Shown: positions 3,475-64,000, counted from the first letter of the stretch. The stretch: 64,000 nucleotides of DNA from Thiohalorhabdus sp. Cl-TMA (GCF_041821045.1 NZ_JBGUAW010000006.1:213821-277820), one strand, 5' to 3'. Made by a program: numbers and translations. Notes: generated by a model not told the origin, from the letters alone.

Positions 3475-6425
3475 TGCGTGACCGCCTCCGTCGCTCCGCC
3501 GGAAAGCGGCTCGGGATCCACTTTCTGGCGGGTGTTTTTGGGGTCGTAGAAAGGAATCGACTCCACCGTGGCCGTGACCCGGGAGCCATCACCCAGCTTG
3601 ATGGGGATCTGCGTGCCCGGCTCCGCCTGATGCGGGGCCAGGTAGCACAACCCGATGGGCTTACCCAGGGTGGGGCTGTGGGCGATGCTGGTGACCCGGC
3701 CGGTGATCTCGTTGCCGTCGAGGACCAGGTTGCACTCCTTCGGCAGCGCTCCGCTGTAGCCTTCCGGCAGGGAGAATCCGGCCAGCTGCCGCTCCTTGGG
3801 CCGGTCCTGGAGCATCTGCAGGGAGCGCTGGCCGATGAAGAAGGGCTTTTCCATCTTCACCGCCCAGCTCATGCCGAGCATGAAGGGGTCCGTGAGCGGA
3901 TCGCTGTCCACCCCGACTATGTTGATGCCCTTCTCCAGGCGCAGAACCCGCTGGGCCTCCAGGCCGCAGGCCTGGATCCCGTACGGGGCGCCCGCTTCCA
4001 GCAGCCGGTCGAGAACATGCTGGGCCCACTGGCTGGGAACGTGGACCTCGTAGCTCAGCTCGCCGACGAAGCCGGACCGGAGAAGGCGTCCGCGCACCCC
4101 GGCGATGGTGCCCTCCCGGAAATGCGGGAAGGGGAACTGCTCCTCGTCGAGGTTTACGTCCGTCAGTCCCTCCAGGACCCGGCGGGCGTAGGGCCCGGCC
4201 AGATTCAGGCCGGCGAACTGCCCCGTAACGTTCACCATCCACAGGTCGGACATGCCCCATTCGATGGCGCATTGCTGCATTTCCTGGTACACCCCGGAGG
4301 AGTGCGTGGTGCCCACGGTCACGTAGAAGCGGTCCTCCGCCAGCCGACCCACCAGACCGTCGGCGGTGACCACCCCCGCCTCGTCGCACTGCAGGCACAG
4401 GGAGCTCCGTCCCACCTGGAGGCTGCTGTATTTGCCCGTGAAGAACCGGTCCAGGAACTCGGGAGCGTCGCTGCCGTTCACCTCGATCTTGCCCAGCGGG
4501 CTCACGTCGATGATGCCCACCGCATTGCGGATCTGGTTCACCTCGGCGGTGATGGCGCCATCCCGGCCGGCGCCGGAGCCCGCGTAGTAGGCCGGGCGCA
4601 GCCAGGCACCGGCGCGCAGGAACTCATCGGCCCGCATGGACTTGTGCTTGGAATGCAGGGCGCTGACGCGCACGGCGCGGAAGCGGCGGCCCGCCAGGTG
4701 CTTGAAGGGCACCGGATGGTAGTAGGGCCGAGCCGTGGTGGTGCCCACCTGATCGATGGGCTCGCCGCGGATCCGCGACAGGATGCGGACGGCATTCATG
4801 TTGGAATGCTTGCCCTGGCTCGGCCCCATGCCGTTGGTGGAATACCGCTTGAGGAGCTCGATGTTGTCGAAGCCCTCCTTGGCGGCATTGTGGTAATCCT
4901 TGAGGTGCAGATCCTCGTCCATGTCGACGAAGTTCTTGCCCTTGGGATGGGCCAGGATCGGATAGGGATGGCTCGGCGGCGGGCCCTGCGGCTCGAGCGC
5001 CTGGGGTACCTCTTCCACCGCCTTGCCCACCTGAGCGGCGGCCGCCAGCCCGGCCCGCTTGCCGTCCGTAAGCTTGTCGGAGAGGACGTACTGCCCGTTC
5101 ACCCGGCCGGCCCCGAACACCCCCTCGGGGACGCTGGCGGGCACGAACTGATGCACCCGGGGGTCGTACTGGACCGTGGCGCCGGCCTGGTAGAGCAGGT
5201 TCAGGGCCGGAGTCCAGCCGGTACTCATGAGAAGACCGTCGCACTCGATGCGCTCGCCGGCGCTCCAGTCATCCGGCCGCTCCGTCCGGAACCGGGCGAG
5301 AGTGACCGCGGAGAGGGTTCCGTCCGAACCGGCGTGGGCCTCTCCGACGGCATGGCCCTTGTAGATGGGGATCCGGGCCTTGGCGACCTGGTCCGCGAGG
5401 TCGGAGCCCTCCCCTTCCTCGCGGAGGTCGGCGATTCCCGCCACGTCCACCCCGGCCTCGGCCATGTCCAGCGCGGCCCGATAACCGTCCGCGTTCGCTG
5501 CAACCACCACCAGCCGCTTGCAAGGCTTTACGGAATAGAGCTGCACCAGCCGCTGCGCGGCGGAGGCCAGCATGACCCCGGGGAGGTCATTATTGCGGAA
5601 GACCGTTGGCTGCTCCCAGCTGCCGGTGGCGACCACCACCGAGCCTGCCCGCATCTTGGTCAGGAACTGGTCGTCCACCAGCGGGACCCAGTGATCGCTG
5701 TAATAGCCGGCGGCCATGGTTCCGGTGCGGATTTCCAGGCCCTCCGTCTGCTCGGCCTGCTCCAGCAGCTCGGCCCGGCGCTGCGCCACCACCGGATCGT
5801 TGGCGCCCTGAAAGTTGAGGGTCCCGCCGGCGTAGGGGTTCTCGTCCACCACCACCGTGCGGGCGCCCGTCTGCGCCGCAGCGATCCCGGCGGACAGGCC
5901 GCTGGGTCCGGCACCCACCACAAGCACGTCGCAGAAGTCGTAGCGCTTGTCGGCCCAGGTGCGAGTACCCGCGGTGTTGAGGGTGCCGAGGCCGGCCATC
6001 TCGCGGATCCGACGCTCCCACATGGGGAACAGTCGCTTGGGCGTATGGAAGGCCTTGTAGTAGAAGCCCACCGGCATGAGCTTGGAGAAGTTGTTCACCC
6101 ACCGGTTGCGGTCCTTGGCCACGCCGCCGCTGGTGTTCACCGCGGTGAGGTTCTGGCCCTCCCGGATGGGCGTGACGTCGCCGCGGATGTTGAGGGTCTC
6201 CCCGTCATCCACCATCACGTTCACGTCATGGTTGGCCAGACTGAGGATTCCGCGCGGCCTGTGGTATTTGAAGCTTCGACCCAGGATCCGTACCCCGTTC
6301 GCCCACAGGGCGGTGGTAATGGTGTCCCCGGCGTAACCGGTGTAGCTTTTTCCTTCGAAGTGGAAGGTCACCGGACGGCTGCGGTCGATGCGCTCGTTCG
6401 GGTTCGAAGACAGGCGTTCGGCCAT
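3471..6425 (-). CDS. mgdC: N-methylglutamate dehydrogenase / sarcosine oxidase-type alpha subunit
   Basis: 984 aa, the expected size for SoxA-type subunits. Domains in order: an N-terminal Fer2_4-like ferredoxin fold (about 15-110, with RPRGILSLANHDVNV), a pyridine-nucleotide/FAD Rossmann region starting [12 protein letters not shown] near 170, a middle domain, and a C-terminal GcvT-like folate domain from about 600 (GIIDVSPLGKIEVNG, then LSYEVHVPS). In sarcosine oxidase this domain passes the methyl carbon to tetrahydrofolate as methylene-THF; N-methylglutamate dehydrogenase uses the same architecture to release glutamate. With gmaS and mgsA downstream on the same strand, N-methylglutamate is the likelier substrate. 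Sarcosine oxidation in glycine betaine breakdown remains the main alternative. Confidence 0.85.
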   Translation of the reverse strand: MAERLSSNPNERIDRSRPVTFHFEGKSYTGYAGDTITTALWANGVRILGRSFKYHRPRGILSLANHDVNVMVDDGETLNIRGDVTPIREGQNLTAVNTSGGVAKDRNRWVNNFSKLMPVGFYYKAFHTPKRLFPMWERRIREMAGLGTLNTAGTRTWADKRYDFCDVLVVGAGPSGLSAGIAAAQTGARTVVVDENPYAGGTLNFQGANDPVVAQRRAELLEQAEQTEGLEIRTGTMAAGYYSDHWVPLVDDQFLTKMRAGSVVVATGSWEQPTVFRNNDLPGVMLASAAQRLVQLYSVKPCKRLVVVAANADGYRAALDMAEAGVDVAGIADLREEGEGSDLADQVAKARIPIYKGHAVGEAHAGSDGTLSAVTLARFRTERPDDWSAGERIECDGLLMSTGWTPALNLLYQAGATVQYDPRVHQFVPASVPEGVFGAGRVNGQYVLSDKLTDGKRAGLAAAAQVGKAVEEVPQALEPQGPPPSHPYPILAHPKGKNFVDMDEDLHLKDYHNAAKEGFDNIELLKRYSTNGMGPSQGKHSNMNAVRILSRIRGEPIDQVGTTTARPYYHPVPFKHLAGRRFRAVRVSALHSKHKSMRADEFLRAGAWLRPAYYAGSGAGRDGAITAEVNQIRNAVGIIDVSPLGKIEVNGSDAPEFLDRFFTGKYSSLQVGRSSLCLQCDEAGVVTADGLVGRLAEDRFYVTVGTTHSSGVYQEMQQCAIEWGMSDLWMVNVTGQFAGLNLAGPYARRVLEGLTDVNLDEEQFPFPHFREGTIAGVRGRLLRSGFVGELSYEVHVPSQWAQHVLDRLLEAGAPYGIQACGLEAQRVLRLEKGINIVGVDSDPLTDPFMLGMSWAVKMEKPFFIGQRSLQMLQDRPKERQLAGFSLPEGYSGALPKECNLVLDGNEITGRVTSIAHSPTLGKPIGLCYLAPHQAEPGTQIPIKLGDGSRVTATVESIPFYDPKNTRQKVDPEPLSGGATEAVTQ

Positions 6426-11320: not shown

Positions 11321-12685
11321 TCAGGAGGCCTGGACCTCCCTGGCCAGGCGGTTGGCCGCAATGAACCGGACCTGGGGCTCCGGATCCTCCAGGAGCTCGA
11401 GCAGATCCGCCCGTTCCAGGGCGGGGTGCTGCACGAGGGTGGCCCGGTTGATGGGATAGGGATCCTCCTTGAGCAGCCCGAGGATCCGCGGCGGCGCTCC
11501 CTTGTTCAGGATCACGGCCCGGCGGACATCGCTGTCGGCATGCCGGGCGATTCGCTCCAGCAGCGCTTCCGGGGTATGGGGGTTGCGCCCCACCCCGGAG
11601 ATCACGTCGATGTCCGAGTCCTGGCCCAGTGCCTCCACCAGCTCCTCCGGGAGGTCCGTGCGGAAGGCCACTCCGGCGCGCACCCAGGATTCCGGATCCC
11701 GGGCCAGCTCCGCGAGCAGATCGCCCGGGCATGCGCTGTTGCGCGTGACGGCCCGCCGAACCTCCAGCTCCGAATCCCGGGCGAGGCGCTCCAGGATTTC
11801 CCGGGCGGCCTCCGGATTCCGGGCGATCCACCTGCGCACCCAAGAATCCTCATCCCGCGAGAAGCGTTCCATGATCTGGGGATCCAGGCCCTTGCGCTGG
11901 GCCTCGGCCCGACGCACGGAGCGCGACGGATCCTCGGCGAGCTGCCGGTGCTCCTCGTCCGTCAGCGTGGATCCCTTGGCGGCGGCCGCCCGGACCCCGG
12001 GGTCGGGGTCCAGGAGCAGCCGAACCACCTCGTCCTGGGTCAGCGCGGGGTTTTCGGCCAGTTTGCGCCGGATCACCGCCTCGGGGTGATGCAACGCCTG
12101 ATGCCGGAGGTGCTCCGGACAGCGGGGATGGGCGGCCACCTCCGCCTGCACGTACAAGTCCTGCAGCCGCCAGAGCCGGATCAGCAGGTCCACGTCGCAG
12201 TTGGGATTGGAGGCGACGGCCTTGCACTCCAGTGGCGCCCCGGCAGCGAACACGTACTTCAGGATGCTCCGGGGAAGGCTCGGATTCCCGCATACCGCCT
12301 TGCGGACCTCCGGATCGGAGCGGAACGGCAGCTCCTCGATCAGCTCCGGCGTGGCGTTGCCGTGTGCCGCCAAAGCCACCGCGAGCCCCTCCCCGTCCGC
12401 CTCATGGAAAAGGTATTCCAGGGCCTCCGGGGGCGTCCTGGGATTCCGGGCGAGCCGTGCCCGGATCTTCGGCTCGTCGAGCCGGGCCAGGGCCCCGAGG
12501 ACCGAAGGCGGCGTGTACGGCGCCCCGGCGAACTGGATGCGCTGCCGCCGGCTGGCGAACAGCACCTTTTCCAGCTCCTCCCGCGTGGAGCCCTCCGCGT
12601 ACGGGTGGAAAGCGAGGGCCAGATAAGGGTCCCCGCTTTCCGCTCCCCGGCGGATCAGGTCCGCTAGCGTCGGCGCTTCAGGCAT
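11321..12685 (-). CDS. LRV (leucine-rich-repeat-variant)/HEAT-like repeat protein
   Basis: 454 aa built almost wholly of about 13-14 helical repeats of about 23-35 residues, each with a core like VRRxVARNPxTPxxLLExLA (for example EVRKAVCGNPSLP, VIRRKLAENPALT, DVISGVGRNPHTP). This is the pattern of the Azotobacter LRV protein family. The family's N-terminal Fe-S domain is not evident: the few cysteines are scattered. The gene lies between the membrane Fe-S oxidoreductase (15-base gap) and etfB, so it is co-expressed with the TMADH electron chain. A scaffold or maturation factor for one of those flavin or Fe-S proteins is my inference; nothing in the sequence shows catalysis. A GTG at 12694 is an alternative start. 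Confidence 0.7.
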   Translation of the reverse strand: MPEAPTLADLIRRGAESGDPYLALAFHPYAEGSTREELEKVLFASRRQRIQFAGAPYTPPSVLGALARLDEPKIRARLARNPRTPPEALEYLFHEADGEGLAVALAAHGNATPELIEELPFRSDPEVRKAVCGNPSLPRSILKYVFAAGAPLECKAVASNPNCDVDLLIRLWRLQDLYVQAEVAAHPRCPEHLRHQALHHPEAVIRRKLAENPALTQDEVVRLLLDPDPGVRAAAAKGSTLTDEEHRQLAEDPSRSVRRAEAQRKGLDPQIMERFSRDEDSWVRRWIARNPEAAREILERLARDSELEVRRAVTRNSACPGDLLAELARDPESWVRAGVAFRTDLPEELVEALGQDSDIDVISGVGRNPHTPEALLERIARHADSDVRRAVILNKGAPPRILGLLKEDPYPINRATLVQHPALERADLLELLEDPEPQVRFIAANRLAREVQAS

Positions 12686-12700
12686 GGAGATCACCTGCCC

Positions 12701-14899
12701 TCAAGGCGCCGGGGATTCCTTGGTCGCCTCGGGGCTCTCGCCCGAGCCGGAATCCGAGCCCTGATCGGCATCTTCCTCGTCCACCCCGAGATCCATGCTC
12801 TCTTCCACCAGCTCGATAAGCTCTTTCACCTCGAACTGGTCCTCGAAGCCCGCGGTCTTGCGGCCGTCCTCGAGCATGTTCATGCACTTGGGGCAGCTCA
12901 CCATCAGCACGTCGAGACCTTCGATGCCGCCGGCTTCCCGCACCCGGTTCTCGTTGATCTTGGGCTGATCCGGCGGATCGGGGATCCAGATCCGGCCTCC
13001 CCCGGCCCCGCAGCAGAAGGAGTTGTCCCGGGAGCGCTCCATTTCCACCAGCTCCGCGCCGAGGGACTGAACGGCCTCCCGCGGGGGATCGAAGCCCTTG
13101 TTGAAGCGGCCCAGGTGGCAGGGATCGTGGAAGGTCACGCGATAATCCAGGCGCTTCTTCAGCGGAATATCGCCGTTGCTCAGCATCCGGTTGATCATGG
13201 CGCTGGCGTGCTCGATCTCGTAATTCCCGCCGAACTCCGGGTACTCGTTCCGGATGGTGTTGTAGGAGTGGGGATCGGTGGTGACGATCCGCTTGAAATC
13301 GCACTCCTCGAGGGTCTCGATGTTGGTCTCCGCCAGGTGCTGGTAGAGGCCTTCCTCGCCCACGCGCCGGATATCGTTGCCGGCCGTCATCTCCTTCTCG
13401 TAGAGGATGCCGAAATCCACCCCGCACTCGTGGAGGATCCGGGCGAAGGACTGCGAGACCTGCTGGTAGCGGGGATCGAAGGAGGCGAAATCGCCCACGA
13501 ACCAGAGCACGTCCACCGGTTCCTTGCTGGCGTCCTTGATCTTGAAGTCCAGCTTCTTGGTCCAGGCGGGGCGCTTGCGCTTGGTCTCGCCCAGGGAGTT
13601 GCCCCGCTTCTGCACGTTCTGGAGGGTGGTCTGGATCATGGAATCCATCTCCCCCTCCTCCACCAGGGCACGGCGCATCTGCATGATCATGGGCACGTGC
13701 TCGATGGAGACCGGGCAGATCTCGGTGCAGGCGCCGCAGGCGCGGCAGGACCACAGGGTCTCGGGGCGCACCTGGTTCTCGCCCTCGCCGATGATGGCGA
13801 GCTGCTCCTCGTCCTCGGGGACCGTCCAGCCCTCCAGGCTGTTGTGGCTGTGCTCCCGAAGGGTGAGCACCACGTCACGCGGCGACAGCGGATAGCCGGT
13901 GGCACGCGCCGGGCAGGCCTCGTGGCACTTGCCGCACTTGGTGCAGGCGTCCACGTTCAGCAGGTCCTTCCAGGAGAGGTCCGTGATCTTGGAGTAGCCG
14001 AGCTTCTCCGCTTCCATGTCCCCCATGGGCAGCCGCTGCACGGGCTTGGGGTCGCGCATGGTCATGGACCCGAGCACGGTGAAGATGTGCTTGGCCTTGG
14101 TGTAGGGAATCAGGCCGATAAAGGCCAGAGCCATGAGTCCGTGGATCCACCAGCTGTTCATCCGCATGGCGCCGCCGACTTCCGGGGACATGCCGACGCC
14201 CTGCATCACGTGGGCGACAACTGCTCCCACCGGGGACCACCAGCGGTAATCCCAGACCATCGGGTCGTTGCTGAGCCAGACCAGACGCGCGCCTTCCAGC
14301 ACGAACCCGGTGATGCCGATCAGGATCAGCAGCCAAAGGAACGCCCAGTCCTCCCAGCGGTAGTAGCTCCGGTCGTAGTCCGAGTCTTCCGGAGAACGGT
14401 CCGGACGGGTGTAATCCAGCCGGGGCTTGGGGGCGATGATCTTGCGCCGATACATCATGTAGATCAGCCCGGCGATGAGCGCTACGCCGGCCACGTCCAT
14501 CACCAGAGAAAACCAGAGATAGAAATCCCCTTGCCAGAAATTGATCCCGAAAAGGGGCCTGGTAATGTCGTAGTTCAAAGTAATGGTAGAAGTGCCGATG
14601 AACAGCAGCAGGAAGCCGTAGAAAATCGAGGCGTGAGACCGCCCCGTTTTCTCGGCCCGGCGCTTTACCGGCCTATGGGTGGCCACATCCTTGACCATGG
14701 CCCACAGACGCGCGCCGACCCCGGTGGCCTCCAGCGGAGCGCCCCGCCGGTACTTCCGGATCAAGAGAAAACAGCCAAAGAAAAAGACGGCTATCGCGGC
14801 AATGGCGACGATGTAGAACGTGATCGTCTGCCATGGGGCGAAATCGCGAAACAGAATGCGGGTGATCGCTTCCGTATCGGAATTCGTCGTCGAAGTCAT
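12701..14899 (-). CDS. membrane-bound Fe-S oxidoreductase (DgcB/ETF:quinone oxidoreductase-like)
   Basis: 732 aa. The first 280 residues hold several hydrophobic helices in a NarI-like cytochrome-b arrangement. Two 4Fe-4S motifs follow: CTKCGKCHEACP near 316 and CRACGACTEICP near 383. The C-terminal half has two CCG-type domains as in heterodisulfide reductase HdrD (CHLGRF near 593, CCGAGGG near 626, CPKC near 670). Proteins of this build (DgcB, or the EMO type) take electrons from ETF-linked demethylases and reduce membrane quinone. Here it lies directly downstream of the TMADH gene and upstream of etfBA, completing the chain. A TTG at 14926 would add nine residues. Confidence 0.85.
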   Translation of the reverse strand: MTSTTNSDTEAITRILFRDFAPWQTITFYIVAIAAIAVFFFGCFLLIRKYRRGAPLEATGVGARLWAMVKDVATHRPVKRRAEKTGRSHASIFYGFLLLFIGTSTITLNYDITRPLFGINFWQGDFYLWFSLVMDVAGVALIAGLIYMMYRRKIIAPKPRLDYTRPDRSPEDSDYDRSYYRWEDWAFLWLLILIGITGFVLEGARLVWLSNDPMVWDYRWWSPVGAVVAHVMQGVGMSPEVGGAMRMNSWWIHGLMALAFIGLIPYTKAKHIFTVLGSMTMRDPKPVQRLPMGDMEAEKLGYSKITDLSWKDLLNVDACTKCGKCHEACPARATGYPLSPRDVVLTLREHSHNSLEGWTVPEDEEQLAIIGEGENQVRPETLWSCRACGACTEICPVSIEHVPMIMQMRRALVEEGEMDSMIQTTLQNVQKRGNSLGETKRKRPAWTKKLDFKIKDASKEPVDVLWFVGDFASFDPRYQQVSQSFARILHECGVDFGILYEKEMTAGNDIRRVGEEGLYQHLAETNIETLEECDFKRIVTTDPHSYNTIRNEYPEFGGNYEIEHASAMINRMLSNGDIPLKKRLDYRVTFHDPCHLGRFNKGFDPPREAVQSLGAELVEMERSRDNSFCCGAGGGRIWIPDPPDQPKINENRVREAGGIEGLDVLMVSCPKCMNMLEDGRKTAGFEDQFEVKELIELVEESMDLGVDEEDADQGSDSGSGESPEATKESPAP

Positions 14900-14964
14900 G
14901 GGTAGAACCCCATTAATGAGAATCAATGCCTTGCGGCAGTACTCCCGCTTGGCCGGAAAAGAAG

Positions 14965-14992
14965 GGGCGCCCGCCCCTGGGGACGGGCGCCC
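14965..14992 (-). terminator. GC-rich hairpin between tmd and the Fe-S oxidoreductase gene
   Basis: Nine-base arms GGGCGCCCG/CGGGCGCCC are followed on the minus strand by TTCTTTTCC. It sits 12 bases after the tmd stop, so it may terminate part of the transcripts or protect the tmd message, making the dehydrogenase more abundant than the downstream electron carriers. Confidence 0.6.
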
Positions 14993-15003
14993 ACACTGAG
15001 TAC

Positions 15004-17214
<2,211 letters not shown>

Positions 17215-54278: not shown

Positions 54279-54980
54279 TTAAAGCGCCGGCCCCCTTCCG
54301 GAGCGTCCCGGGCGCTGGGAACTGGACCCCGCACGAGCCGCGTCGCGCGCCTCCAGGCGGGCGGCGGCCCCTTCCAGCACCTCGATCACCCGGCCGCCGT
54401 TCTCGCCCTTGAGCCGCCGTCTCGCCCGCATGAGCGGGGTGGAGCCCAGGTGATCAGGGATCCGGGGATCCGCGCCATTCTCCAGCAGCACCGCGATGAC
54501 CGTTTCCGAGCCCATCAGGGCGTCGTGCAGAGGGGTCTGCCCGAGGATATTGCGGGTGTCGGGACGCGCGCCGCGCTCCAGAAGCACCCGGACGTATTGC
54601 AGGCCCCGCTCCCCCAGACGGGCGGCCCAGTGCAGCGGAGTCTCGCCGCGGAAGTTCTCGTAGTTGGGGTCCCCCTCGTCGGGCGGAAGCCCGCCCGGAC
54701 AATAGAAGAAATCGTCCCCCACCCAACGCCCGCCCAGACGCAGGACCTTCCTGCCCCGCGGCCGGCGGGCGAAATGATGGGCAACCACCTCGGCCCGGAG
54801 GCGGCTCAGCAGGGCATTGCGCTCCTGGTCCGCCGATCCCACGTTAAGGTTGGGCAATTCCTCGGGAATGCCCATCCAGCTCTCCCGGCCCTCGATCAGG
54901 GCCTGCTGGAAGGGATCGCGGGCAAGGGCCCAAGCCCGCCGGTGGGCGCGATCGTCCAGGATCTCCGTATGGCCGCTCAA
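54279..54980 (-). CDS. ankyrin-repeat protein of the VWA/AAA operon
   Basis: 233 aa. After an unassigned N-terminal half, three ankyrin repeats are clear (RGETPLHWAARLGERGLQYVRVLLERGARPD, LGQTPLHDALMGSETVIAVLLENGADPR, LGSTPLMRARRRLKG). No signal peptide. Its start overlaps the stop of the AAA ATPase gene (ATGA), so it is made together with that protein. The C-terminus is a Ser/Arg/Gly tail ending SGRGPAL, closely resembling the tail of the divergent ankyrin protein (58767-59690). Function unknown; binding a partner or delivering it to the AAA protein is inferred. Confidence 0.75.
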   Translation of the reverse strand: MSGHTEILDDRAHRRAWALARDPFQQALIEGRESWMGIPEELPNLNVGSADQERNALLSRLRAEVVAHHFARRPRGRKVLRLGGRWVGDDFFYCPGGLPPDEGDPNYENFRGETPLHWAARLGERGLQYVRVLLERGARPDTRNILGQTPLHDALMGSETVIAVLLENGADPRIPDHLGSTPLMRARRRLKGENGGRVIEVLEGAAARLEARDAARAGSSSQRPGRSGRGPAL

Positions 54981-56653
54981 GAACCTCCTCCCGTGGAATG
55001 CGCACCCCCGCCGGATCGGCCTCGGCCGTCCCCCGCGCCATGGCCCTGCCCGGTCGCCTCCGCTTCGGCCTCGAGCTCGTTCAGCACATCCTGAATTTGA
55101 TCGTGGTACCCCGCCCGGTAATCGGCGCAGGTGCTGATCACGTCAGCGAACTCGTCCTGATCGCCGCGGAAATAGGGCGCGAAGCCGTCGCGCATGGCCC
55201 GTGCCACCTCGGGAACGACGACCCGGGAGTCCAGATAGGGCGCGGGGAGCTGGTCGCTCAGGCGATCCACGAAATGACGGAGCGCCGCCCAGAGCTGCGT
55301 CCGGTGAATGGCCTGGGTGGCCTCGCCGATCCGGCCGGTATAGATGCGGATGGCCTCCACGACTTCCGGACTCCTTTCCCCGGCACCGTCGGACGGCAGG
55401 GTCCGTATGATGGCGGTGGCGGCCTGGTCGGCGGCGGCCAGGCAGAGCTGCAGGCCGAACTCGCTCTCCCGGGCCCCCGTTCCCGTGCCGTAGCGCTCCC
55501 GGATGCGGGCGTGGGTGGCTTCCACCTCCTCCGCGGACAGGGTGTCGTAGCTCCGAACCAGCTTGGTGGCCAGGGGCGCGGCGTGGGTGAGATACGCGTG
55601 GAGGTAGCTCGCCAGCTTGAAGCCGGCGTCGCTGCCGATCAGCCCGCTCGCCTTGGTCTGGAGCTGGACGAGGCTGAGCTCGCCCCCGTCCAGGGCGCCC
55701 TCCACCCGCCCGCCGGTGGCCCGGTAGACCAGGGACGGCAGACGCTTGGCGAGCTTCTCCAGGCTTCGGGGGGAGGGGAACGGACCGCCGTCCTTGGGCG
55801 GCATGGAGTAGAAGATGTCCTCGTGCTGGCGCAGGAAGCCCACGAAGCCCACGTCGCCGATGCGGCCCGCCGGGCTCCGGGCCAGCCAGCGCTGGTAACG
55901 CTGCACCCAGTGATCGAGGTTGTCCTCCACGTAGTAATGCTCCACCCGGTTGTCGAGCGCCGTCCCCATGCGGCTGATGGCCACGGCGCCGTCGGCGCGG
56001 CCCAGATTGGTGGTGATGCCGACCCAGGCGCGATCCCCGAGCTTGTTCTGGCCGTAGCGCCGATCGTTCACCACCCCGAGCACCGACGGGATCAGCCGCT
56101 GGTCCGCGTTTCCCAGATCCTCCAGCACCAGCACGCCCACCCCGGCATGGGGCATCAGTGCGAACACCCGCTCGGGCAGAGTCTCCATGTAGGAAACGGA
56201 GGACCCCGCTCCCTGGTTGCGCTCCGCCTTGGATGGGATGCCGGCGAAGGAGACCGCGGAGACCTGGCCGGCCATCTCCCGGATCGCGAAGAGGAAATCC
56301 TCCTTGGTGACCGCTTCGTGCACCTCCTCGTCCATGTCCTTGAAGTACATCCCCATGGCCTTGGCGGCCCGCCGGGCGGCCATCTTCATCACGGTGCTCT
56401 TGCCGTGGCCGGGCGGGCCGTGGAGGGTGACGCCCGGCATGGGATCGTCGTCGAGCTCCGGGCTGAAGGTGACGATGGCCGGATCGAAGGGGATTCCGAA
56501 CAGGTGCTCGTAGCCGCTCGCCACGCGGGCGTCGATGTCGGGCTCCCGGCCGTGGGTGTAGGCGCTGAGCAGCATGGACTCGCTCAGCTCGTCCAGGAGG
56601 TCGTCCGGATGGACGAAGGGATAGGGAACCTGATCCTTCAACTGCGTGGGCAT
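54977..56653 (-). CDS. AAA ATPase (MoxR-like) partner of the VWA protein
   Basis: 558 aa from ATG 56653 with AAGAGG upstream. Walker A LHGPPGHGKSTVMKMAARRAAKAMG near 83, Walker B VLVLEDLGNADQRLIPS near 170, and an ITTNLGRAD sensor-1-like segment near 205 show a AAA+ ATPase. The C-terminal 300 residues are helical and not recognised, ending in a Gly/Arg/Ser-rich tail (GQGHGAGDGRGRSGGG). MoxR-type ATPases act with VWA proteins to remodel or activate a client, often by metal insertion. Here the VWA gene is directly upstream (112-base gap) and an ankyrin gene directly downstream. The client is unknown. Confidence 0.78.
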   Translation of the reverse strand: MPTQLKDQVPYPFVHPDDLLDELSESMLLSAYTHGREPDIDARVASGYEHLFGIPFDPAIVTFSPELDDDPMPGVTLHGPPGHGKSTVMKMAARRAAKAMGMYFKDMDEEVHEAVTKEDFLFAIREMAGQVSAVSFAGIPSKAERNQGAGSSVSYMETLPERVFALMPHAGVGVLVLEDLGNADQRLIPSVLGVVNDRRYGQNKLGDRAWVGITTNLGRADGAVAISRMGTALDNRVEHYYVEDNLDHWVQRYQRWLARSPAGRIGDVGFVGFLRQHEDIFYSMPPKDGGPFPSPRSLEKLAKRLPSLVYRATGGRVEGALDGGELSLVQLQTKASGLIGSDAGFKLASYLHAYLTHAAPLATKLVRSYDTLSAEEVEATHARIRERYGTGTGARESEFGLQLCLAAADQAATAIIRTLPSDGAGERSPEVVEAIRIYTGRIGEATQAIHRTQLWAALRHFVDRLSDQLPAPYLDSRVVVPEVARAMRDGFAPYFRGDQDEFADVISTCADYRAGYHDQIQDVLNELEAEAEATGQGHGAGDGRGRSGGGAHSTGGGS

Positions 56654-56765
56654 TTCGTGCCTCTTGCGTTTGATCCGAGCCCCGCGTTGGTAGCCCGGAC
56701 TTTTCCATAGGCGGGACCCGGCGCCGGGTCCGCTCGTACGGGATCGTTTGGTATACGGCGATTCA

Positions 56766-58532
56766 TCAGGGCGCCGCGCCGGGCGGGCGCCCCCGGTCGC
56801 CCGTGGGCTGGTCGAAGTCCACCTCCACCCCGGGCCGGATCTCGCAGATCTCGGCATAGGGCCGGGCGGCCTTCATGCCCTGCTCGTGCTTGTGGCCCTC
56901 CGGGACGATGAAGGTGACCCGGGGCGGAAGCCGGGGATGGAGCCGCCCCAGCTCCGGCACCCGGTCGCACCAGTCCGTGAAATAGACCAGGCCGTCCACG
57001 GGCCAGCCCTCCTGCCGGGCCAGCTCCACCGCCATGTTCATGCAGTCCGCCAGGCTGGTTCCGCCCCGCCCATAGGCCTCCATGCCCTCCTCCAGCAGCG
57101 TTTCGAAATCCCCCGGCTGGATCCGCTGCGCTTCGCCCCGGATGACCGTATCGGCGGAGAGGACGATGATCTCCCGGTTCAGGCCGCCCTCGCCCATCTC
57201 GCGGCTCATGCCGGCCACCTCGCTGAAGAAATCGCGGAGCATGGCGGTGCCCACGGAACCGGAGGTATCCACAACCACCAGGCTGGCCCGGGCCGGCGAG
57301 TGAGAGACCACCGTGCCGTCGTATACGGGCTCGGCCATTCCCATATCCCCGGGCTCCACGTAATAGAGGTCCCCCGGGAGGTCGTCCGTGTAGTCCGTGC
57401 CCCCCTCTCCGCCGAGCACCGTTTCCTGAAGGCTGTCCCGCCAGCCGATCACGGGCTCGTGGAGCACATCCACCCGGGTGCCCAAATAATCGGAGATGTG
57501 GGCGCCGGCCATCTGGCCGCCCTGGCGTTCCGCCTCCTTGGCCAGATTCCGAGCCTTGGCCGCCTCCTGCGCCATCTTGGCGGCCAGCTCCTGGGCCTGC
57601 GCCTCCGCTTCCTGGGGATTCCGCGGCAGGCCCGCCTTGTCGGCCACGCCCTTCAGCCCGGCGTTTTCCAGGGTATGCCGCAGCTCCAGGGGATCGGTGA
57701 GGTCCCCGCCCTCGGAGCCGTCCGGGCCCACCCCGGGCTGCGGGGATTCAGGGTCCCCGCTTCCCGTGCCCTCGGCGGAGACCTCTTCGCCCGAGGACTC
57801 CGGGACCTCGCCCGCTCCGCCTTCCCCCGATTCGGCCTCTTCCCGCTCGCTATCCCCGGAGCCGCCACCCCCGGTGCCCTGTCCGCCGCCTCGGGGAGCG
57901 CGCCGGCCGGTTTGGCCGCCCTTTCCCGATGGCGGCTCCGGCATGTCCGCCAGTAGCGCCTTCAGGACCTGCAGCTCCGTCTTGCCGCGGTACTTGCTGC
58001 GCTCCTGGTCGGAAGTGCCCAGCCCGCCGGGGATGTCGTCGCCGTTGCCCAGGAAATAGGTGCCGAAGGTCATCCGGCGCTCGAAGGCGTCCAGGAGCAT
58101 GCCGTTGATCACCACGTCGTGGGCCATGTTCACGATGTGGGGCGAAGCCTGGCCGCCATGCCGGCCTTTCGTGTGGTTCAGCATCATGTGCATCATCTCG
58201 TGAAGCAGCACGGGGATGACGCTCTCCCCCCCGCCGGCGCGCTCGTCCGCGAGCATGCTCCGGAAGAAATCCACGTTGAAGAAGATGTACTGCCCGTCGG
58301 TGAAGGCCGTGGGGAAACGCGCCGTGATGTCGGGATGGTCGTACAGATAGACGGGCACCCGCTGGGCCATGAGGGAGAACTGGCCGAACCGGGGCAGGGT
58401 CATGCCCGATTTCGTGTCGCGGGTGCTGCCCATCACGAACTCCCGCACCCGGTGCATGGCCTCCTGGTAGGGGTGATTCTCGGCGGACAGCAGGCTCCGC
58501 TGCCCCATGCGCTGCGCGCTCATCTGGGTCAT
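56766..58532 (-). CDS. VWA-like protein with N-terminal putative metallopeptidase domain
   Basis: 588 aa. The N-terminal region holds a zincin motif, PVLLHEMMHMMLNHTKG near 107, as in DUF2201/PF13203 putative metallopeptidases. Residues about 210-290 form a long acidic Gly/Ser/Glu-rich, probably disordered linker. A Gln/Ala-rich helical part follows. The C-terminal VWA-like domain has a MIDAS DTSGSVGTAM near 419, TSLADCMNM and YFTDWCDRVP. Both a zinc site and a Mg/Mn site are thus predicted. First gene of VWA-AAA-ankyrin. Protease activity is not established for this family. Confidence 0.82.
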   Translation of the reverse strand: MTQMSAQRMGQRSLLSAENHPYQEAMHRVREFVMGSTRDTKSGMTLPRFGQFSLMAQRVPVYLYDHPDITARFPTAFTDGQYIFFNVDFFRSMLADERAGGGESVIPVLLHEMMHMMLNHTKGRHGGQASPHIVNMAHDVVINGMLLDAFERRMTFGTYFLGNGDDIPGGLGTSDQERSKYRGKTELQVLKALLADMPEPPSGKGGQTGRRAPRGGGQGTGGGGSGDSEREEAESGEGGAGEVPESSGEEVSAEGTGSGDPESPQPGVGPDGSEGGDLTDPLELRHTLENAGLKGVADKAGLPRNPQEAEAQAQELAAKMAQEAAKARNLAKEAERQGGQMAGAHISDYLGTRVDVLHEPVIGWRDSLQETVLGGEGGTDYTDDLPGDLYYVEPGDMGMAEPVYDGTVVSHSPARASLVVVDTSGSVGTAMLRDFFSEVAGMSREMGEGGLNREIIVLSADTVIRGEAQRIQPGDFETLLEEGMEAYGRGGTSLADCMNMAVELARQEGWPVDGLVYFTDWCDRVPELGRLHPRLPPRVTFIVPEGHKHEQGMKAARPYAEICEIRPGVEVDFDQPTGDRGRPPGAAP

Positions 58533-58766
58533 GGCTCGCTCCCGGGGAGGTGGACTTTACCGGTCGTCCTATCCCACTTTGATTTGCGATACGGCGGGGG
58601 ATTCACCCCCTCCTATCCCCGCCCGCCCGGGCCCCGGTCTTCCAGTGGGATCACCCCTGACAGGATGGGGGACTTTCCTGACGGGGAGCGATTCTTGCTT
58701 GCCGGACGGTGTCGAAGGACGTTAGCTGGTCGTTTGGCGGGGAGGCGGCAGCGACAGGAGGCTGGA

Positions 58767-59690
58767 ATGCTGGAAATGCGGGGCGCCAACCGGATTCTGG
58801 TGGCATCGGCAAACAACGCGGACCCGGACGGCGTGCGGCTGGCCTTCAAGGCTGGCGCCGATCCCCGTATCCTTCTGGTACCCGGGGAGGACGGCGTTAC
58901 CCCCATGCACCGGCTCATAACCATGGGGGCCAAGGACACCGCCGTTTCCGCCCTGGCGGAAGGCGGCGCGGATATGGATCTGGAGATCCGGGACCCCTGG
59001 GGGCGCACGCTGCTCCACCGCACCGCCATCCTGGGTCAGGCCCTGATCGCGGAGGCGCTTCTGGAGAAGGGGGCCGACCCGGATGCCGAGGACCCGGGCA
59101 CCGGGGGCACGGCCCTGCACCTGTGCGCCCTGAACCGCAGCTGGCAGGCGGGGATCGCCCTGGCCATGCACGACGCCGACCCCGGGATCAAGGACCGGGA
59201 AGGCTCCACCCCCCTGCACTGGATCGCGGTTCCCATGCACCGCAAGGCCGAACGGGGCCTGTACAACCCGGCGGGCCTGGTGGGGTGGCTGGAGGTGCTG
59301 CTGGAGCGGGGCGCGGATGTGGATATACCCGACGCGAACGGCCGCACCCCCCTGCAGGTGGCCGCCCGGAACGGCAACGAGCCGGTGGTGGAATCCCTGC
59401 TGTATCACGGGGCCGACGCGAACCGCACCGACGCAGAGGGGCGCACCGCCCTCCTGCAGGGGCTCCTGAACAACCATCCCCGGGTGACCGAGCTGCTGGT
59501 CCAGCACGGAGCGGACCCCGGCATTGCCGACCAACAGGGCACCACGGTCCTCGACCGCCTGAACTTCATCCAGGCGGCCTGGGGCGTGGACCTGGCGGAA
59601 CAGGTCCGCCGGGCGGCCGCCCGGGAAGCGGCCCGCTCCAGCTCCCGGGCGGGCACGTCCCGCTCCCCGGAGCGCGGCCCGTCCCTGTAG
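58767..59690 (+). CDS. ankyrin-repeat protein divergent from the VWA/AAA operon
   Basis: 307 aa from ATG 58767 with AGGAGG upstream. Nearly the whole protein is ankyrin repeats, about seven (for example WGRTLLHRTAILGQALIAEALLEKGADPD, EGSTPLHWIAVPMHRK, NGRTPLQVAARNGNEPVVESLLYHGADAN, EGRTALLQGLLNNHPRVTELLVQHGADPG). No signal peptide. The tail, Ala/Ser/Arg-rich and ending SPERGPSL, matches the end of the other ankyrin protein of this module. A region of about 230 bases shared with the VWA gene should contain both promoters. Confidence 0.82.
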   Translation: MLEMRGANRILVASANNADPDGVRLAFKAGADPRILLVPGEDGVTPMHRLITMGAKDTAVSALAEGGADMDLEIRDPWGRTLLHRTAILGQALIAEALLEKGADPDAEDPGTGGTALHLCALNRSWQAGIALAMHDADPGIKDREGSTPLHWIAVPMHRKAERGLYNPAGLVGWLEVLLERGADVDIPDANGRTPLQVAARNGNEPVVESLLYHGADANRTDAEGRTALLQGLLNNHPRVTELLVQHGADPGIADQQGTTVLDRLNFIQAAWGVDLAEQVRRAAAREAARSSSRAGTSRSPERGPSL

Positions 59691-60366: not shown

Positions 60367-60771
60367 TCAAAGCCCGTAGTTCTCCAACAGGCGCAGCCAG
60401 TTCTCGCTCACCGTCGGGCAGGCGGGAACGGCGTGCCACAGCCGCCCCAAGGGCACCTCCCCGGCCACCGCGCCGAAGGGGTGCTCCACGGTGCGCCCGG
60501 TTCGTCCGCGCTTCCGGGCGGCCTCCTCGCTCAGCCCCACCACGGCCACCTGGGGATCCGTGAAGGTGACAAAGGGCACCGCGCTGTGGTCCGCCCAGGC
60601 GGAGATCTCCCGGAGGGCCTTGCTGGGCATACACGCCCAGTAGGTGCACTGCCCACCCATCAGCTCCTGCTCCACCAGGACCGCCGATAGCCCGTTGACC
60701 ACCGCCCGGGCGGCCGCGTTCTCACCCACCGCCCCACCGCCGATCACCACCACACGGAAACGCTCCGCCAT
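60367..60771 (-). pseudogene. collapsed pyridine-nucleotide disulfide oxidoreductase
   Basis: 134 aa, whereas the family has about 450-480. The first 52 residues are a normal N-terminus (VVVIGGGAVGENAAARA, then GGQCTYWACMPSKAL with the redox Cys pair). Sequence then jumps directly into the C-terminal dimerisation domain (FVTFTDPQVAVVGLSEEAARKRG, HAVPACPTVSENWLRLLENYGL). The middle of the FAD domain and the whole NAD domain are missing, an in-frame internal deletion of roughly 300 codons. The remnant cannot bind FAD or NAD properly, so a decayed gene is the best reading; a recycled small protein is less likely. Confidence 0.8.
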
Positions 60772-63144: not shown

Positions 63145-64000
63145 ATGCTTAGAAAAAGTGGGGGCAACCTGCGAGGCCCGGGGAGCGTGGCACTGGCCGC
63201 TCTGCTGGTCTCTTCATGCGGTTACGGACCTGATGAAACGGATACCTGGACGCAGGTCGGCGACGACACGCAGCAGACGGATTCCGGCTCCGGGGACCAG
63301 AACAACGATGGCTCCGGGAGTGGGGACCTGAACGACGGCGGTTCCGGCTCGGATTCCGGGAGCGGAGACCAGAACGACGGCGGTTCCGGCTCGGATTCCG
63401 GGAGCGGGGACCAGGACGACGGCGATTCCGGCTCGGACTCCGGGAGCGGGGACCAGGACAGCGGCGATTCCGGCTCGGATTCCGGGAGCGGGGACCAGGA
63501 CAGCGGCGATTCCGGCTCGGATTCCGGAAGCGCCGATTCCTCCTGGAGCCAGGAATCCGCCCAGACGGATCCCGATGAGCCCGACTACCGCCCCTACTCC
63601 GGGGTCACCGCCGGCAACGGCTTCGTCTACTACTGGGGCGGCGGCCACAAGACCCATCCCGGCAACGATGTGGACGCCTACGACATCGTCAACGACCGCT
63701 GGGTCCAGCTCACCGAGGAAGAGAACTGGGAGAACGTCTGGGAGTGGGACCACCTAACGGAGCAGGAAAAGCAGGAGATGGACGCCAGCCGGCGTGGCGG
63801 CTGGGAGGTGGATCTCCTCAGCCCTCGGGGCCGGCCCGTGACCAAGCATTCCTATGGCCAGATGGCTTGGTGGCCTGGCCATGGCTATTGCCTGCTCAAG
63901 CAACGCTTCTGGTGCTATGACCCGGAGATGGGGGACGCCGATGGTGCCTGGACGGATTTAGGTCAGCCTCCTTTCAACATAGCCGGGATCGCCCCCTGGA
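63145..64000 (+). CDS. lipoprotein with a Ser/Gly/Asp repeat linker and probable beta-propeller domain, 3' end outside window
   Basis: At least 285 codons, running off the right edge. A lipoprotein signal (LAALLVSSCG, Cys about 25) follows MLRKSGGNLRGP. Residues about 45-130 form an acidic linker of five 14-residue repeats. The domain then begins (YSGVTAGNGFVYYWGGGHKTHPGNDVDAYDIVNDRWVQLTEEENW), with the GNGFVYYWGGGH and VYDxxxxxW-like pattern of kelch/galactose-oxidase beta-propellers. Probably a surface protein with an extended stalk. Propeller assignment is tentative because the gene is incomplete. Confidence 0.75.
   Translation, partial: MLRKSGGNLRGPGSVALAALLVSSCGYGPDETDTWTQVGDDTQQTDSGSGDQNNDGSGSGDLNDGGSGSDSGSGDQNDGGSGSDSGSGDQDDGDSGSDSGSGDQDSGDSGSDSGSGDQDSGDSGSDSGSADSSWSQESAQTDPDEPDYRPYSGVTAGNGFVYYWGGGHKTHPGNDVDAYDIVNDRWVQLTEEENWENVWEWDHLTEQEKQEMDASRRGGWEVDLLSPRGRPVTKHSYGQMAWWPGHGYCLLKQRFWCYDPEMGDADGAWTDLGQPPFNIAGIAPW
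63316..63525 (+). repeat. five tandem 42-bp repeats inside the lipoprotein gene
   Basis: Units start at 63316, 63358, 63400, 63442 and 63484, each coding GSGDxxxGxSGSDS. Copies 4 and 5 are nearly identical, a sign of recent expansion, and a sixth partial unit follows. Copy number may vary among strains. Confidence 0.9.

Follow-up and report, generated by a model that had tools for sequence, protein, structure and literature searches.

What would a cluster of four genes, encoding a metallopeptidase-like protein with a VWA domain, an AAA+ ATPase and two ankyrin-repeat proteins, do in a bacterium when no gene for a client enzyme lies beside them? This question is raised by positions 54279-59690 of a 64,000-nucleotide stretch from a chromosome-like contig of Thiohalorhabdus sp. 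Cl-TMA (GCF_041821045.1 NZ_JBGUAW010000006.1:213821-277820; hereafter the window), where an earlier reading of the DNA made from the sequence alone (the sequence-only reading) had proposed that the four genes constitute one module. Our analysis confirms the cluster and indicates that its AAA/VWA pair falls within a separate and rare subfamily, found mainly on large plasmids, to which ankyrin genes appear to have been added in one branch.

The AAA/VWA pair defines a rare subfamily carried mainly on large plasmids

The VWA protein matched, from N to C terminus, the Pfam families DUF2201_N (PF13203, 34.4 bits, cut-off 23.2) and DUF2201 (PF09967, 40.3 bits, cut-off 26.4), and is composed of an N-terminal zincin-like metallopeptidase domain with an HExxH motif, a low-complexity acidic linker and a VWA domain with a complete metal ion-dependent adhesion site (MIDAS). 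With eight homologues aligned, H111, E112 and H115 of the HExxH motif (residues 111-115) were invariant, as were D139, N143 and the MIDAS residues D422, S424, S426, T492 and D520 (DxSxS, T and D). As a guess, D139 might serve as the third zinc ligand. The linker varies in length and composition, and relatives have one rich in Q, in N or in G/S/E. The sequence-only reading regarded a zincin motif, a MIDAS and a long linker within one protein as unexplained. As judged from its sequence, however, this combination is the already known DUF2201_N/DUF2201 architecture with a variable spacer, and a pair of this kind has been published from jumbo phages (PMC7824862).

The VWA protein also matched phrog_1314 (E 2e-32), and the ATPase matched phrog_1297 (E 1e-22), a family that was matched by all nine subfamily ATPases. 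The window ATPase carries a Walker A motif (GPPGHGKS), a Walker B motif (VLED), a sensor-1 Asn and a conserved Arg. Walker A, the sensor-1 Asn and the Arg are common to all nine, and their Walker B motif ends in DD (ED in the window), compared to DE in the jumbo Xanthomonas phage XaC1. Profile searches of solved structures returned weak Clp/Hsp100-type AAA and VWA matches, and a fold search with the ATPase returned weak AAA+ (Clp-type) matches. The earlier assignment of a MoxR-like AAA/VWA pair is supported; the Walker B motif departs from the hhhhDE expected of that ATPase class.

Close relatives of the VWA protein are found on 170-600 kb plasmids of Shewanella, Alteromonas, Aeromonas, Vibrio, Acidovorax and Methylibium, and most of the gammaproteobacterial plasmids among these carry the ATPase as well. 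The two co-occur, usually close together, on plasmids of Alteromonas, Aeromonas, Shewanella and Vibrio and in phage XaC1. A scan of ~85,000 species genomes, which sets a lower bound because its peptide patterns were narrow, added two further contigs, one from HGW-Gammaproteobacteria-1 (PGZL01000001.1, hereafter L046) and one from Alteromonas antoniana (L047). The ATPase gene is genetically coupled to that of its VWA partner, lying adjacent to it in the window, L046, XaC1 and most plasmids. Elsewhere the pair is rare. Within the class, generic DUF2201 proteins were present in 96 of 368 further genomes, the best scoring 79 bits compared to ~700 for the window's own protein, and a profile search of these 368 genomes found no close VWA relative. 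In a phylum sample of 398 genomes there was none besides the window at E 1e-20; the two samples partly overlap and together cover ~700 other Pseudomonadota genomes. Scans of viral contigs with single proteins and with an alignment found no relative.

The maximum-likelihood tree, built from 41 VWA proteins, joined the window and L046 proteins (97/87) within a clade of megaplasmid proteins (100/100) that stands apart from chromosomal DUF2201 proteins and from phage XaC1, whose branch is long. Because branches in this tree are long, the sister relation of the window and L046 proteins is likely rather than certain. L046 carries the closest VWA protein (35% identity), and its ATPase is 32% identical to that of the window. 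The megaplasmid pairs of Aeromonas pMAH4, Alteromonas MRG65-300, Shewanella FH-1 and Vibrio belong to the same subfamily in both proteins, with D-D at Walker B and with VWA proteins in the same clade as that of the window. They differ in that the two genes are usually divergent (in Shewanella FH-1, ~54 kb apart) and in that a protein of ~250-320 amino acids is encoded upstream of the VWA gene, where the window has ankyrins. The XaC1 pair (PHROG 1297 and 1314; ORFs, or open reading frames, 287-288) has the same two-protein architecture and domain order as the window pair. Its ATPase, however, is shorter and keeps the Walker B DE, its record has no ankyrins, and the window VWA protein lies in a separate clade. 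From their architecture, we infer that PHROG 1297 and 1314 are the families meant in PMC7824862. Collectively, these results define a rare subfamily in which the altered Walker B motif is common to all aligned members. The label 'HNH endonuclease', carried by PHROG 1314 and by XaC1 ORF 288 (L007 4209-5588), looks wrong, since the sequence contains an HExxH motif together with a VWA domain.

Two ankyrin genes flank the pair in the window

All four genes are present in the order given by the sequence-only reading, VWA, AAA and an overlapping ankyrin gene, with a second ankyrin gene divergent, and their limits could be refined (Table 1). The ATPase starts at ATG 56653, preceded by the Shine-Dalgarno-like AAGAGG; a longer ORF starting at 56857 was rejected, as it overlaps the VWA gene and has no homologue support. 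Ankyrin 1 starts at TTG 54980, within a TTGA overlap with the ATPase stop and behind GGAGGAGG, so that its translation is likely coupled to that of the ATPase; the sequence-only reading had noted the overlap. For ankyrin 2, a mechanical start at 58119 was discarded as an over-extended frame running antisense to the VWA gene. Where a shared promoter region had been supposed, the VWA and ankyrin 2 genes do diverge from a common 234 bp, but a sigma-70-type promoter scan of this intergenic region returned no match.

Table 1. Coordinates of the module in the window and of P[AST]L-ending proteins on L046
Feature	Position	Strand	Length and basis
VWA/zincin protein (DUF2201_N/DUF2201)	56766..58532	-	588 aa (amino acids); Pfam, invariant motifs, tree
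AAA+ ATPase, MoxR-like (phrog_1297)	54977..56653	-	558 aa; motifs, phrog_1297, 32% identity to L046 ATPase
Ankyrin protein 1	54279..54980	-	233 aa; Ank_2 58.5 bits; Shine-Dalgarno GGAGGAGG
Ankyrin protein 2	58767..59690	+	307 aa; Ank_2 105.9 bits; Shine-Dalgarno AGGAGG before ATG
Divergent intergenic region, VWA gene/ankyrin 2	58533..58766		234 bp; putative promoter region
P[AST]L-ending proteins, contig PGZL01000001.1 (examples)	157652, 159426, 165455, 170003, 199827, 202397		

Genome searches found the VWA protein and the ATPase in single copy, at the module only, and an Ank_2 search of the 3.74 Mb genome found ankyrin repeats confined to the two module genes. Both ankyrins of the genome therefore flank its only AAA/VWA pair of the subfamily, a placement with a post hoc chance probability of p ~2e-7, calculated with an assumed gene number of ~3,500 and random placement. 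The guanine-cytosine content of the module shows no contrast with its immediate surroundings. By Pfam, the neighbours are housekeeping-type genes, and none among them is a client enzyme gene, in agreement with the sequence-only reading. In two sequenced congeners (99% and 82% complete), the ATPase, VWA protein and ankyrins are all absent; a synteny comparison showed the flanking genes scattered in these genomes, with no clean empty site. Because this joint presence or absence represents a single event in three species, and ankyrin genes are widespread in the class, occurring in 37 of 56 genomes, it is weak evidence by itself.

The ankyrins as a probable addition of the window/L046 branch

On L046, a single base separates the ATPase gene (4476-6065, minus strand) from the ankyrin frames that follow it (ATG; 4474 downwards, then 3782-2994). 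In the assembly, the ankyrin reading is frame-shifted at more than one point, and these frames are probably two tandem ankyrin genes. The arrangement differs from that of the window in that the AAA and VWA genes are divergent and both ankyrin frames follow the ATPase. The support that L046 lends to ankyrin coupling is moderate, given that there are about a dozen ankyrin genes on the element. A. antoniana has a single ankyrin gene, which shares a 291 kb contig with the pair and lies tens of kb from it. On the plasmids, the proteins encoded just upstream of the VWA gene belong to several unrelated families, and an ankyrin profile gave no significant match to them; we therefore rejected the idea that they are divergent ankyrins. 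The exact four-gene order was seen in the window alone, and L046 is the one sister lineage with AAA, VWA and ankyrin ORFs. Based on this distribution across plasmids, phage and L046, the ankyrins appear to be an addition of the window/L046 branch and do not belong to the subfamily in general. As to whether the arrangement had been described before, the architecture of the pair is known, and no description of the megaplasmid subfamily or of the ankyrin-coupled branch was found in a search from which much subscription literature was excluded.

A candidate machine for remodelling or processing clients

The function proposed here is argued from sequence features and by analogy with other AAA/VWA systems. 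NorQ/NorD, RavA/ViaA and CoxD/CoxE share with the window pair the logic of an AAA ring and a VWA/MIDAS co-chaperone, but they lack a zincin domain and ankyrin partners and have dedicated host enzyme clients. For NorQD, the VWA domain has been modelled as a plug of the ring, and MIDAS mutants lost client activation while retaining ATPase binding (PMC9976466). By analogy, the window AAA+ protein would form a hexamer on which the VWA domain of its partner would dock, as NorD on NorQ; the MIDAS metal site would grip a client through an acidic residue, and the VWA domain would couple ATP-driven movement of the ring to the client so held, beside the zincin domain, which in turn might clip or hold the client presented to it. 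Ankyrins are protein-binding scaffolds, and an adaptor is therefore the simplest role for the two ankyrins, which would select the clients to be delivered, with ankyrin 1 translated in step with the ATPase. The original job of the pair is likely to have been the maturation of a protein assembly of a mobile element, because it is of megaplasmid and jumbo-phage type and has no client enzyme gene beside it. For jumbo phages, a MoxR ATPase/metallopeptidase-vWA pair has been suggested to take part in virion assembly, where it would process structural proteins (PMC7824862), and our literature search found no report of a client for any such pair. Taken together, we give about even credence to the module being an ATP-driven machine of mobile-element type for remodelling or processing clients, captured on a chromosome and using the ankyrins as adaptors.

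Several points weigh against this proposal. In the Walker B motif, Asp occupies the position of the expected catalytic Glu, and ATP hydrolysis could consequently be slow. AAA Pfam models score below their gathering cut-offs for the ATPase, and AlphaFold models made from three-sequence alignments reached predicted local distance difference test scores of 40 and 47, too poor for folds or interfaces. With regard to the ankyrins, the 243 kb contig of L046 carries about a dozen ankyrin ORFs and the ankyrin frames by the ATPase shift, and by our own estimate there is perhaps a 5-10% chance that their adjacency to the ATPase is accidental. Moreover, 9 of 11 plasmid and phage records have no ankyrin. 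Conservation of the four genes together, which the sequence-only reading had offered as a check, is accordingly divided: across the subfamily, the ankyrins vary independently of the pair and would not be essential to the machine, since most subfamily members are without them, but L046 does couple ankyrin ORFs to the ATPase, and within the genus the genes are either all present or all absent.

Related C-terminal tails and the role of the ankyrins

The main rival to the adaptor role is that the ankyrins are dedicated clients or inhibitors, with the machine binding or trimming a common C-terminal tail and the state of the ankyrins being the output. Ankyrin 1 has a unique N-terminal region of ~100 amino acids, two to three repeats and a tail ending ...GRSGRGPAL, and ankyrin 2 consists mostly of repeats, with a tail ending ...SRSPERGPSL. 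The two Arg/Ser-rich tails are related (EARDAARAGSSSQRPGRSGRGPAL and AAREAARSSSRAGTSRSPERGPSL), with the common pattern AR[DE]AAR...RGP[AS]L and an alignment score equalled in 1 of 20,000 shuffles. A genome search for RGP[AS]L ends, restricted to CGN codons for Arg and to TAA and TGA stops, missed both ankyrins and was uninformative. On L046, P[AST]L-COOH is the end of 7 of the 194 predicted proteins, compared to 0.23 expected from the internal frequency of the motif, which was chosen after some L046 proteins with that end had been seen. Two of the seven flank the VWA gene, one on each side, and belong to the same family. There is also a precedent in VMAP-linked peptide systems, where metallopeptidases act on C-terminal motifs of neighbours (PMC7159879). 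The recurrence of P[AST]L ends on the window ankyrins and the L046 element is suggestive, but the likeness of the two tails may merely reflect paralogy, the L046 P[AST]L proteins comprise only three unrelated families, the L046 ankyrins themselves lack this end, and neighbours on other plasmids end in other letters. On balance, we consider it unlikely that the ankyrins are clients or inhibitors. A bolder extension, in which a P-[A/S/T]-L-COOH tag on ankyrins and other partners would be read by the AAA/VWA-metallopeptidase pair, recruiting or trimming unrelated proteins, and in which a megaplasmid system for tag-directed assembly or processing would have been captured on the chromosome, appears to us quite improbable.

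On Aeromonas pMAH4 (L089 4379-14808), an -RP ending is common to the ATPase, the VWA protein and the product of the gene that comes after VWA, and these genes are followed by four encoding proteins of 338-377 amino acids, two of which have LRHEA-type tails. The -RP ending was tried as a widespread tail and dropped, as it is not widespread in the 100 kb of pMAH4 checked.

Relic, defence and chaperone explanations

Is the module a captured relic of a megaplasmid or jumbo phage, with no present function involving the ankyrins, which would be adjacent by an accident of the same transfer? The nearest relatives on megaplasmids, the absence of the pair from congeners and its rarity in the phylum would all fit such an origin. 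However, all four reading frames are intact, their ribosome sites are good and the active-site residues have been preserved. Within the surrounding 126 kb, no gene besides those of the module resembles the L046 element, indicating that the module has been kept as a compact unit. We accordingly regard a relic as improbable, somewhat more so than a client or inhibitor role for the ankyrins. The related possibility that the window is an integrated L046-like plasmid was rejected, as the module genes alone match between the two (the ATPase match was masked by an antisense ORF in that comparison and was shown by a separate alignment).

A role in defence, which had been left open by the sequence-only reading, found no evidence in PADLOC. 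MoxR-vWA pairs are the core of predicted conflict systems (PMC7159879), in which they could act as a threshold switch, and ankyrins occur in some defence proteins, with weak PADLOC ankyrin-repeat matches here. In contrast, PADLOC returned nothing credible for the ATPase or the VWA protein, and Pfam and PADLOC searches of the neighbours detected neither an effector, nuclease, STAND or VMAP-like gene nor the third VMAP/iSTAND/FtsH component of a VMAP-type system. As the neighbours are of housekeeping type and the plasmid pairs sit among replication, partition and secretion genes, we consider a defence or biological-conflict system very unlikely. Equally doubtful is a chaperone for cofactor insertion or assembly of a host enzyme, which would share its AAA/VWA logic with NorQD, CoxDE and RavA-ViaA (PMC9976466), given that no client enzyme gene is adjacent, those systems have no zincin domain and the relatives of the window pair travel on plasmids.

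AAA/VWA-metallopeptidase pairs are found repeatedly on jumbo phages and megaplasmids, and, returning to the proposed client-processing machine, a compact chromosomal copy with dedicated ankyrins and conserved motifs would be tractable for finding its targets and for testing whether cleavage actually occurs.

Other observations

On the Vibrio plasmids, the pair lies near an RctB-type replication initiator (L043 5857-10811; L045 4857-9741; L008 9698-11656), and genes for Dot/Icm-type secretion are present on related plasmids. On L046, 33 tRNA genes form an array at 11725-16667, 2-7 kb from the VWA gene. In the window, a 134-amino-acid ORF at 60367-60771 (minus strand) fuses the first ~52 positions of Pyr_redox_2 to the start of the Pyr_redox dimerisation domain and is, by Pfam, the remnant of an internally deleted flavin disulphide reductase. 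A repetitive ORF at 63214-63753 (minus strand) contains many APGIRAG(I/T)AVVLVPAPG-like units and is possibly an antisense reading of a repeat on the opposite strand.

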